64,000 nt of DNA from Agelaius tricolor (lineage: Eukaryota; Chordata; Aves; Passeriformes; Icteridae), in assembly GCA_023055355.1 (NCBI GenBank), contig JALJCS010000004.1, forward strand, positions 25,518,744 through 25,582,743, given 5' to 3'. The position numbers and the translations under genes are program-made. Shown piece by piece: positions 34,716 to 45,547 of the stretch. Under the pieces are notes generated by a model, which searched no databases, was not told where the DNA came from, and saw only the letters and a list, made by a program, of their open reading frames with translations. Each line of letters opens with the position of its first letter. Within the stretch, counting starts at the first letter, position 1.

Positions 34716-34850
34716 GCAGGCAGGGCAAGGCAGGGCAGGGCAGGGCAGGGCAGAGCAGAGCAGGGCAGGGCAGGGCAGGGCAGGGCAAGGCAGGGCAGGG
34801 CAGGGCAAGGCAGGGCAGGGCAGGGCAGGGCAGGCAGGGCAGGCAGGGCC
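34716..34850. repeat. GGGCA pentamer minisatellite
   Basis: About 27 units of the pentamer GGGCA and close variants (AGGCA, GAGCA) run for 135 bp. One strand carries GGG runs separated by two bases, a pattern able to form G-quadruplexes. Because the unit is five bases, every frame is free of stops, which explains five overlapping open frames here of 65-140 codons. They are not genes. Confidence 0.9.
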
Positions 34851-42133: not shown

Positions 42134-42139
42134 CACTAG
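42134..42139. repeat. Left 6-bp target-site duplication
   Basis: CACTAG directly precedes the TG of the LTR. An identical CACTAG lies at 42822-42827, after the tRNA copy. Six base pairs is the size usual for class II (ERVK) integrases. Confidence 0.7.
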
Positions 42140-42460
42140 TGTATCATTGTGTCGTTTATATGGGTTTTATTGTAAAATTGGTTATTTTTTATAAGTTAAG
42201 ATTTGGTTTGACCCTCGGTTCCCCCCATGTTCTCCCTCATAATAGTTTGCTCCTCCTGCCAGTTACCTGTCCCTCATTGTAACCAATCCGCTTTCATTTC
42301 GAGAAATTTCTATATCAGTCTTCCCTTACCTAACATATGATTTGTCCCCTGAGCCTTTTCCCTCCCTTGGGCCATTCCTATTGTTTCAATTGTGTCCCTC
42401 ACTCCTCCCCTGGGCTTCGTTCATTGGTCCCTCGTGGCTCCTCACGAGGAGCCCTTCCCC

Positions 42461-42468
42461 TTTATAAG
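42461..42468 (+). promoter_or_regulatory. TATA box of the LTR
   Basis: TTTATAAG lies 51 bp before the AATAAA, consistent with a short R region. Confidence 0.6.
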
Positions 42469-42518
42469 TGCCTCCCGAATGGTTTTTCTCTGACACCATT
42501 ATTGGGCCTGCCTGGGTC

Positions 42519-42524
42519 AATAAA
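42519..42524 (+). promoter_or_regulatory. Polyadenylation signal of the LTR
   Basis: AATAAA in the context GGGTCAATAAAGCGCC, in the R-region position. Confidence 0.7.
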
Positions 42525-42741
42525 GCGCCTTGGCATCCAAGGCACATGTCCACTCCTTCCTTCCTTTGCCTCAGTGCTGCGCAGTCCTGCTCTCGCCTGT
42601 GTCACCAGGCCACAGATGGAGCCACTACTCAGGGTTCTCACAGGGGTCCTGGGAGTGGCAGGATTCGTGGTCCCCACTGGTGACTCCAGGAGCAGCTAGC
42701 TGGACCCGTCAGCTCCAGTGGCCGTGGGATGAGACTGCAGT

Positions 42742-42817
42742 TGGCACCCAACAGAGGGCTCAAACCCACGACCCTGAGATTAAGAGTCCCATGCTCCACT
42801 GACTGAGCTAGCCAGGC
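42742..42817 (-). pseudogene. Full-length tRNA-Lys(CUU) copy including CCA, joined to the LTR
   Basis: On the plus strand TGG (42742-42744, complement of the 3' CCA) is followed by 73 bases that align without gaps to the reverse complement of vertebrate tRNA-Lys(CUU). Read on the minus strand, the sequence begins GCCTGGCTAGCTCAGTCAG, has the anticodon loop CTCTTAA and a T arm of GGGTTTGAGCCC, and ends TTGGGTG then CCA. Against my recollection of the gene there are about nine differences, five at CpG sites. Nuclear tRNA genes do not encode CCA, so this derives from a mature tRNA by reverse transcription. Normally only about 18 nt (the primer-binding site) is copied. Here copying reaches the tRNA 5' end. 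It is unlikely to be functional, because T-loop C56 and other bases are altered. Confidence 0.85.
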
Positions 42818-42821
42818 ATCA
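42818..42821. other. Four extra bases between the tRNA copy and the target duplication
   Basis: ATCA separates the last tRNA-matching base from CACTAG. It ends in CA, the dinucleotide retroviral integrase requires at an LTR end. It may be untemplated addition or captured sequence. Confidence 0.5.
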
Positions 42822-42827
42822 CACTAG
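42822..42827. repeat. Right 6-bp target-site duplication
   Basis: CACTAG is identical to 42134-42139 and defines the LTR plus tRNA copy as one insertion of 682 bp. Confidence 0.7.
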
Positions 42828-45547
42828 CTGACAGCATCCACACACTAGAATCTCCTTCTAGGTTTATATTATTCTGAAAAGAAAAAAAAAAAAAAGGAAG
42901 ATTCACCAGAAGAAAAATTATTATTTCTCTTTTGCATAGAGAGAGGGTAAGCATGCCAGAAGTAATGCAATATTGAGAGATGGCATGGTGTCTCTGAGGT
43001 AGTAGGAAGAAGCATTTCCTTGGAACCAGAATGAGTTTGTTACCACTGAACTGGGTGCAAGAAATTAGCATCTGTAAGTACTGAAATAACTGAGAAAAAC
43101 TGCTAAAATAAATCAGTTTGTTTCTGCCAAAGTATTTTGTACTAAGTTGTAATTTTGTTCATTTATTAAGGTGAATTTATTTGGTATGCTTTTAATTGCA
43201 TTTTTAATTTTAAAAAGATTGTGGGGAATTCATCATCAGAGAAAATTTAGGCCCATCCATTTCAAAGCTCTCCCTGAATTCACATCTCATTGCTGCCATT
43301 TAATTGTTCCTCTGTCAGCTTTGTTCTCTCTCAGTTTTATTTAATTAATAGATTATTATTATTGTTATTTTTATTATTTTTATTATTGTTATTATTGTTA
43401 TTATTGTTATTATTATTCTATCAGGGAGAAAGCTTCAGTCACCTCAAAGAATACTTTCTCTACACTGAACTTAGACAATTAAATTTAATTCCAATTATCT
43501 ACCACAGACATCTGTCTTAAAAATCTTTAGGTATGTATTCTTGGGCCAACACAAAAACTTTGGGATCACCTAATGCTGCTAAGTTAATTTTCCATGCCTG
43601 AAATGAAAATGGTTTTCCAAAACAATATACACTTAAATTTTAAGAAGCACTTCTGAGCCTGAATTGCATTTTTGTTCTACACTTGAGTTTACAGCAAAGA
43701 ATGAGACTTAGTTATTAGGCTTCTTGTTTTGCTTTTTGTGTGCACATAAATATAATACTTCACCAACAATTATTATAAGGAATAATTTCTGGTGTTTTGT
43801 GAAACTGGAACAGCTTTCTGTACCTGCCTATTGCAGAGGAAAAGGTTAGTTTAGGCTTCTTGCCAACTTAATCCTTGGCATTTGTTCTTGAGCACACAGA
43901 AACATAAGTTTCAATTAATATTAGAACTAGGAAGGTTGTTTCCATAATAGATCCACCTGTTTGCTATGAAATGGGTTGAATCCAATAACCTGCTTTACAT
44001 ATGCTACATGATAATCCCATGTAACCAAAATTCCACTTTTCCATCACCCTTTACTGATGATATGCCTTAAAAAAAATTATTTGAAAATACATTGGGTTTC
44101 GTAAAATATGAGAAAAAATAATGTTCTCTGAGTTCATTCTATATTAATGTTATAGCAGTATAGTGTATTATTGCTTTGATGCCAAGAGACTGCCTAAAGG
44201 AAAATAGTTGGATTCTTTTCAGGACTCCAAAACATAGCCAAATGAGATTTAGTATATATTTCATCACCTTAACATCAGTTTAAAATACCACAGAAATAAT
44301 GCAAAAATCTGATATCAGATAAAAGTTCATGAATAACAAGAACATCAGTAAAATTAAAAAAAAAAAAAAAGACAAAAATATTTAATGCCTTTAAACTGAG
44401 CAAGATGTGTTCAGGAGTTCCAAGCAATTATTTTTTGGTGAACTATTTTTTGATGAATACAATAACCTATCTTTTCTTCACAGAATGACTGTAACTTAAA
44501 AATAAACTATAAAAGAAAACTGTTCACATTGACAGGACATTTGTCTTTTAAACCAGGTAACACCTACATGGTGAGTTTTTTTAAGAGAAGACCAATTTAT
44601 TCAGTACTCACTGTTTTTAATTTTCATATTAACAAAAATATTCATGGTGATATCACTATCACATCATTCTTCCTGGAGAGCTCAAGGATAGCTTTTGTCA
44701 TTTTGTCCAGGCTTATTTCACCAAATACAAAAGTCAGTAAAGAAATTTCTGTCTGGTCACTGATTTAGAATGATGTAAATATTTTAATTATCTCAAACTT
44801 TCATCAGCTTACAATTTATGTGATGATAATGTTTTCTGTCTTTGATGTGGCAGGCAAACTACAACAAAGAGATTGATCTTCTTCTAGGAAAATTATAAGC
44901 ATGTTAAAAAGAATTAAGATAATTGCATCCTGTGTGGCTGAATTTGAATAACTCTTTTTTTTAAATGCAGATTTCTCAAAAACGGAAGAAGAATTTTCTT
45001 GACAAATTTGCATTTCTCTGACTGATGCGTTAAATTCTTCTATCAGAATGATAGACTGCAGCTCATTACAGCAAAAACATAGCAAAGAAAGAACATAGAA
45101 TTATTAGCTTAAATTAACATAAAAATTGAACTAATTGAAGATCAGATATCTCCTTGAAGTTATTTTGTAGTGTATTGGAATGGCTAAAGCATAGTATTCT
45201 TGGTCAAAAATTACAGTTGTGAGTGCAAGAAATATTATTATACTTAAACTAAACAATAAAAAGATTCAGACCATAGTTTGGGAGGTTGGTTTCTGCACTA
45301 CATCCTTTATTTAGATGATGCTTTGTTGCTTTGGACAAGTCATAGTCTTCAGTATCACAGTGTAAGAACAGTCAAAAAAATTGTTCATTAACAGATCATC
45401 TTTACTTCTGGGTTTTTATTACCAAGTTCAGCAAAAGCAGGTCATAAGTACTGTCATTTTGAATTATTTTTAGAAGCCAGTGCTAAAACAGTGCTAAAAT
45501 GAAGTTAAATAAATGATACTAAATGATCTTGAAATTATCACTATTAG
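42828..45547. other. AT-rich non-coding stretch
   Basis: No gene is recognised. It contains a TTA/TTG trinucleotide microsatellite at 43351-43417 and homopolymer A runs near 42880 and 44358. A short segment near 45330-45365 is faintly like a MIR-type phrase but was not called. Confidence 0.5.
43351..43417. repeat. (ATT)n/(GTT) microsatellite
   Basis: About 22 trinucleotide units of ATT with periodic GTT interruptions. The poly-Leu frame across it is an artefact. Confidence 0.9.

Follow-up and report, generated by a model that had tools for sequence, protein, structure and literature searches.

A retroviral LTR and a complete tRNA-Lys copy enclosed by one target-site duplication in a bird genome

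Results

The insertion at 42134-42827

In this work we analysed a 64-kb stretch of the Agelaius tricolor genome, here called the window (C4:25518744-25582743), and searched the host assembly that contains it (1.158 Gb in 214 contigs). The window carries, in this order, CACTAG, a 600-bp LTR, GT, TGG, the reverse complement of a 73-nt tRNA-Lys(CUU), ATCA and again CACTAG. A preliminary description had proposed this arrangement, and every part lies where it had been placed. The left target-site duplication (42134-42139, plus strand) is flush with the TG of the LTR and agrees at six of six positions with the right one (42822-42827, plus strand). The LTR itself (42140-42739, plus strand; TGTATC...ACTGCA) belongs to a family, F1, of which 39 other copies were scored in the host, and its borders match those of the family and the flush 6-bp duplications of solo copies. 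Motif scans located a TATA-like box in the putative U3 (42461-42468, plus strand) and an AATAAA polyadenylation signal, probably in R (42519-42524, plus strand).

Between the CA of U5 and the primer site lies GT (42740-42741, plus strand), also present at the proviral junctions L006, L010, L024, L027 and L029 and different at L028. The following TGG (42742-42744, plus strand) is the complement of the post-transcriptional CCA and sits 2 nt past the CA of the LTR, as primer sites do. The complete but decayed 73-nt tRNA-Lys(CUU) copy (42745-42817, minus strand) was recognised by ARAGORN, Rfam and alignment, and positions 42742-42759 (plus strand) correspond to the 18-nt Lys1,2 primer-binding site, the sequence of which is printed in PMC8775094, with 4 of 18 nt different. 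The four extra bases ATCA (42818-42821, plus strand), the last two of which are CA, connect the tRNA copy to the right duplication; they occur in neither sense of the tRNA-Lys copy, and comparison by eye with the U5 end of the window LTR gave no match. The insertion thus extends 82 nt past the LTR, through the whole primer tRNA. The six bases right after the LTR alone, GTTGGC, mismatch CACTAG, and the tRNA copy lies inside the duplication.

On its plus strand alone the window contains CACTAG 21 times. On both strands together it occurs 40 times, compared with a shuffle mean of 25.4, and none of 100 shuffles reached 40. A third copy lies at 42843-42848, 21 bp farther on, so that the right flank is locally repetitive. 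This third copy and the over-representation of the motif would suit a coincidental repeat, with a deletion scar as the right end of the insertion. Against this, of 6-mers drawn at random from the window only 0.33% recur at one of the 11 starts that follow the tRNA (0.08% with CA directly before), and exact duplications are repeated at other loci; we consider a coincidence very unlikely.

The remainder of the window contains CR1-like tails, which speak for the bird origin of the sequence, and a GC-rich pentamer array, (GGCAG)n, of 26.6 copies at 34719-34849 in AT-rich surroundings. A Pfam search with 10 window ORFs gave a single match, below threshold, and IMG/VR pattern scans with pieces of the LTR gave 0 matches.

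The tRNA-Lys(CUU) copy

The only tRNA that ARAGORN predicted within the 64 kb is tRNA-Lys(ctt), placed at 42742-42817 on the minus strand, and the copy scores 36.4 bits with Rfam model RF00005 (gathering threshold 29). It differs from a vertebrate reference tRNA-Lys(CUU) at 9 of 76 nt, five of them of CpG type, and from a reference tRNA-Lys(UUU) at 19 of 76. Four of the nine differences fall inside the 18-nt primer site; three of them are adjacent (window positions 42752-42754, tRNA nt 63-65) and break the T-stem, and the primer-site part is therefore no clean copy of a working tRNA. CpG decay alone is no explanation for these adjacent changes. Folding of the copy as RNA gave no signal (z -0.27).

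The stretch 42745-42817 is a decayed copy and not a working gene, as its T-stem is broken and CCA is present. A nuclear tRNA gene was rejected on the same two features, the stem being broken by the changes at nt 63-65, and the earlier argument that the encoded CCA speaks against a chance neighbouring tRNA gene was upheld. Among the genome matches listed there was no clean tRNA-Lys(CUU) gene without TGG, which may reflect the limit of the search.

Family F1 in the host genome

With the F1 LTR as query, the genome search yielded 171 first-look candidates. Scores were obtained for 40 of them (the window and 39 others), and 29 of the others were read as a sample. All 39 end at query base 597-606, or at 613-621 with a primer site after, and the right border of the window LTR at 42739 agrees with these family ends. 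In twelve of the 29 copies read, the last LTR base borders directly on an exact 6-bp duplication (6/6 and flush at L002, L003, L004, L007, L008, L012, L013, L018, L019, L020, L021 and L023), and slipped or 5-of-6 duplications are present at L009, L014 and L026. L006, L010, L024, L027, L028 and L029 run into a TGG primer site and leader; L028 and L029 are near the Lys1,2 site and the other four are more divergent. L017, L022, L025 and L030 look like 3' LTRs because a polypurine-like GGGAGA precedes them, and L005, L011, L015 and L016 have no clear border pattern. The LTRs of L006 and L017, which are 6.2 kb apart and were read as one provirus, are 5.3% different. The mean distance of the window LTR to 25 relatives is 12.5%, the largest mean among the 26 aligned.

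F1 has the TG...CA ends, polyadenylation signal and dispersed copies of class II (ERVK-type) LTRs, together with the 6-bp duplication and, in proviral copies, the tRNA-Lys primer site. From its LTR, duplication length and primer site, F1 is putatively assigned to the class-II type.

The tRNA body is absent from all 29 other F1 copies read, six leaders included, so that, as far as sampled, the tract is private to the window copy. A provirus of the family carrying the same 76 bp in its leader, which the preliminary description had named as a refutation, was thus found at none of six proviral junctions among the 29 copies read. The same description had suggested looking for further LTR-tRNA junctions of the family of the window; none was found in F1 (0 of 29 other copies), whereas other families did contain them.

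Other LTR-tRNA junctions

With the 80-nt tRNA copy as query, 25 genome matches were obtained, the window among them, and ARAGORN called a tRNA at 8 of these 25 loci. When a 33-nt pattern was searched and 3 mismatches at most were allowed, 35 matches were found, compared with 0 for a reversed-pattern control. These 35 were sorted into 12 tandem-array units, 15 copies at the 3' end of an LTR (two of them in one palindrome) and eight TGG-bearing tRNA-Lys copies without recognisable LTR (L034, L038, L045, L052, L060, L086, L087 and L088). L044, L050 and L053 are weaker matches of the 80-nt search, outside the 35, to which no LTR was assigned. The tandem arrays of tRNA-Lys-like units are L039-L041 (C31), L048 (C33) and L043 (C87); those of C31 and C87 have a CCCTAAACCAGGACAAATTT-like linker.

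Family membership was taken from upstream alignment or start motifs, except that L084 was assigned by its last 100 nt and L076 by its last 100 nt and the start motif. F1 is represented by the window, F2 by L032, L049, L051, L084 and C4:7772025 (added from the F2 family search, outside the 35), F3 by L033, L036/L037 and L054, and F4 by L035, L042, L046, L047, L055 and L076. The U5 end, a short spacer, the CCA complement and an antisense tRNA follow each other in the same register at these other LTRs. When the F2 and F4 loci were aligned (without L076, L084 and C4:7772025), the loci of each family had the LTR in common and nothing after the tract, as expected if host flank follows.

A CCA-tailed tRNA retropseudogene beside which an LTR landed would give a similar picture in two events, and the genome does contain the eight TGG-bearing copies without recognisable LTR. 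We nevertheless consider it very unlikely: other LTRs show the same CA, short spacer, register of TGG and antisense direction of the tRNA, the LTR by itself has no flush repeat, and one duplication encloses LTR and tRNA. Two separate insertions were rejected on the shared duplication and the recurring junction register. The proposal that LTR and tRNA copy entered as one unit is supported by the shared duplication, by a tract that has no counterpart in the sampled F1 copies and by the recurrence in other families.

Ordinary copies of F4 and F2

For F4, 40 of 349 first-look candidates were scored as a sample, with L035, L042, L055 and L076 outside the 40; among the 40, only L046, which was the query, and L047 extend well past the primer site. 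Canonical F4 copies end in CTTACA (five read), with flush duplications of 6/6 at C12 and C35, 5/6 at C20 and no clear one at C98; a polypurine tract precedes the canonical copy at C21. Three of four F4 primer-site pieces enter a leader without tRNA body. The fourth, L102 (C1:25357150-25357335, minus strand), has only TGGTGCC, 7 nt of the site, and then TCTTACA, like the canonical U5 end. This may be an abbreviated tract that leads into a second U5 end, but a left border and a duplication could not be located.

For F2, the search yielded 1550 first-look candidates. In the 40 that were scored, the query and C4:7772025 alone extend well past the primer site. The terminal bases of canonical F2 LTRs are CAATA or CAATG; flush 6/6 duplications border the copies at C16, C37 and C3 but not the one at C13. 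Two of three F2 primer-site pieces enter a leader without tRNA body, and the one at C9 is cut after 9 nt of the site, where a 5-of-6 repeat is present.

These copies bear on the possibility that the tRNA stretch is an inherited leader or LTR part of the retrovirus, comparable to Helenus, from which the rest was deleted. Tandem tRNA-Lys-like arrays do exist at C31, C33 and C87, and the LTRs of Helenus contain tRNA-like sequence (PMC10886601). However, a tRNA body was present in 0 of 6 F1, 0 of 4 F4 and 0 of 3 F2 primer-site pieces, the LTRs of the families stop before the tRNA with flush duplications, the F2 and F4 loci are common in the LTR and different after the tract, and the duplications of animal Helenus elements are 4 bp long (PMC10886601). 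We find this reading scarcely credible; inheritance through the leader is largely refuted by the pieces of the three families, and a Helenus-type TRIM was rejected because F1 LTRs end at base 600 without tRNA and the duplication is 6 bp, not 4.

Tract ends and duplications

The tract reaches tRNA nt 1 at the window, L032, L033, L034, L035, L036/L037, L038, L042, L087 and L088; the local aligner halts at nt 6 for the window, L032 and L035, one mismatch preceding the last matching bases. Shorter tracts end at nt 7 (L045, L053, L055), 9 (L047), about 11 (L076), 15 (L086), 19 (L049), 21 (L051, L054), about 22 (C4:7772025), 24 (L084), about 28 (L046), 31 (L052) and 42 (L060).

The start of the LTR was located at 13 loci, which correspond to 12 elements, L036 and L037 being arms of one. 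At three of the 13 (the window, L046 with GAAGAT and L076 with CTGGGG), the left 6 bp are repeated exactly between -8 and +45 relative to the end of the tract. In a control with random 6-mers from the same loci 0.23 were expected and 28 of 20000 sets reached three, and for a repeat with CA before, seen at two loci (the window and L046), 4 of 20000 sets reached two; the span was set once the window and L046 were known, so that these figures are somewhat favourable. The true left 6-mers matched in 8 of 338 shifted windows. The duplication of L076 is weaker because CTGGGG occurs twice there. A fourth exact 6-bp duplication, CACAGC, was found at C4:7772025, which was read in short pieces and lies outside the 13-locus control. 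The exact duplications beyond the window (L046, L076 and C4:7772025) thus cover two other families, F4 and F2.

At L035 a 5-of-6 repeat, TGCCCG/TGCCCC, follows directly after the complete tRNA, and L051 has ATCTTC/ACCTTC. Both are weak by themselves, because L037 and L054 have 5-of-6 repeats close to their tracts as well, and there they are not believed. No 6/6 repeat was found near the tract at L032, L042, L047, L054 and L055, although LTR and tract are present. Integrase usually needs CA at the end, and the final bases of the L035, L076 and C4:7772025 insertions are not CA.

Tails and palindromes

At L046 the tract is followed by the tail TACTTACA; its last six bases are identical to the canonical F4 end and are found at a single place in the 3047-bp locus. 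The 19-nt tail of L051 agrees with the U5 end of L051 itself at 16 of 19 positions, whereas the best of 2886 other windows of that locus reaches 14. Both tails look like the product of a template switch from tRNA to U5, which would restore the attachment end. No tail after the tract is present at L035 and L076. At C4:7772025-7772683 (L103, L104), the tract finishes with AGTCGGT, which is the D-loop in opposite sense, directly before the duplication. About 1 kb downstream of L046, pieces at C33:3265714-3266313 match the middle of the L046 LTR (query 304-461) and form a local repeat.

Two F3 loci are palindromic. L036 and L037 (C9, about 3704187-3707607) together form a single insertion, of which each is one arm, and CACAGG borders it on both sides. 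Either arm consists of an LTR, a complete tRNA-Lys copy and then an opposite-sense frame, with U3 at both outer ends. The frame resembles Gag_p10 weakly, and the score (E 0.006) does not reach the curated cut-off. L033 (C78:793457 region) is a shorter palindrome with CTCTCT at both ends and one LTR-tRNA junction, and its inverted partial LTR is 99.6% identical to the first LTR over 242 bp. These palindromes could have arisen from a strong-stop product that was extended through the whole tRNA, continued on gag RNA as the new template, reached the leader and folded back, in which case both integrated ends would be U3 ends.

Discussion

The insertion very probably arose when DNA synthesis read through the attached primer tRNA and the lengthened product was then integrated. 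In this mechanism a bird class-II-type endogenous retrovirus primed by tRNA-Lys(CUU) would undergo reverse transcription, and at the U5 end the reverse transcriptase would pass the usual 18-nt stop and copy the whole of the tRNA still attached. Four further bases, ATCA, would then be added to this end, and its concerted integration, in which we infer integrase to be the joining enzyme, would leave a 6-bp duplication and an LTR tailed by the copy of its own primer. The same accident would have happened several times, in different LTR families and with varied tract lengths, sometimes with a template switch to U5 or elsewhere. Read-through and integration together explain why the tract stands in register, carries CCA and is antisense, why it is private to the window copy within F1, and why such tracts recur and are enclosed by duplications. 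The shortness of the duplication and its repetitive flank, the bases ATCA, the ends other than CA at L035, L076 and C4:7772025, the five loci with LTR and tract but no 6/6 repeat, and the adjacent changes in the primer-site part speak against it.

The preliminary description had gone further and proposed that a read-through strong-stop intermediate was integrated. Its read-through part is supported; the choice of intermediate does not follow, since full-length DNA with a tRNA end, later reduced to a solo LTR, yields the same sequence. On that route a full-length DNA with a tRNA-extended right end would integrate as LTR-genes-LTR-tRNA, and recombination between the LTRs would leave the solo LTR. 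Retention of tRNA primer sequence on viral DNA ends is documented at 2-LTR circle junctions (PMC5618025 and PMC9198661), many ordinary F1 copies are solo LTRs, and no unusual left end is required. On the other side, a polypurine tract precedes none of the 13 tRNA-tailed elements with a located start (at C4:7772025, 17 upstream bases were seen), so that none of them resembles a 3' LTR whose provirus is still present; 4 of 23 ordinary F1 copies without primer site do have such a tract, a difference between numbers too small to be decisive. We give the full-length route a little less than an even chance.

Alternatively, a short plus-strand strong-stop DNA that was read through the tRNA and made double-stranded may have integrated directly, to which we attach a somewhat lower probability, clearly short of even. 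The lack of a polypurine tract before all 13 elements, small as these numbers are, agrees with it, and the F3 palindromes resemble strong-stop products (tRNA copied, switch to gag, fold-back) within 6-bp duplications. On the other hand, the minus strand runs on past U3 during synthesis, so that a proper left end would need a further step, and the F3 elements, with their two U3 ends, differ in structure from the window. The polypurine counts, too small to be decisive, and the palindromes lean towards the short route over the full-length one. A more general proposal, that several bird class-II lineages repeatedly copied their primer tRNA past the stop, often to its 5' end, and that LTR-tRNA DNA was integrated directly as a minor route without second strand transfer, is put forward tentatively, as more probably wrong than right.

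What is known of the halt of strong-stop synthesis at a modified tRNA base comes mainly from laboratory systems. As a rule, the plus-strand strong-stop product stops 18 nt into the tRNA, and m1A58 is needed for this stop (PMC9317671). With an A58 mutant tRNA no extra tRNA sequence was reported in integrated HIV-1 (data not shown there) in PMC1785368, which also cites work in which copying proceeded up to A37 in some instances. Viral ends that bear tRNA are called unsuitable for integration in PMC9198661.

HIV-1 2-LTR circle junctions likewise carry tRNA-derived sequence on U5, which PMC5618025 and PMC9198661 ascribe to faulty primer removal. Those junctions are unintegrated, whereas the tract of the window is germ-line, lies inside a 6-bp duplication and reaches the 5' end of the tRNA. 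Solo LTRs of class II bird endogenous retroviruses have the same TG...CA ends, AATAAA and 6-bp duplication, and the Lys primer site in their proviral copies, but the window insertion runs on for 82 nt, whole primer tRNA included. CCA-tailed tRNA retropseudogenes are DNA copies of mature tRNA with CCA and, unlike the window, have no LTR inside the same duplication. Intermediates of the yeast retrotransposon Ty1 are reported to have untidy ends, with extra nucleotides on reverse transcription products (Mules 1998); their likeness to the window consists in these extra end nucleotides. The Helenus TRIM has tRNA-like and LTR sequence together, as the window does, and differs from it by the tRNA within its LTRs, which is inherited, and by the 4-bp duplications of its animal members (PMC10886601).

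A germ-line LTR with a complete primer tRNA inside one duplication was not found in searches of the open-licence literature, which is no proof of absence. Duplication-flanked germ-line tRNA tails are unexpected in view of this literature, while their ingredients were already known.

Conclusion

Our observations suggest that an accident expected to be blocked reached the germ line repeatedly. Integrated tRNA tails would show that integration of tRNA-bearing ends is possible, despite their description as unfit in PMC9198661. They would also explain some of the CCA-bearing tRNA-Lys copies that are annotated as tRNA genes. If this interpretation is true, the tails constitute a germ-line fossil record of enzyme reach, read-through stops and template switches.
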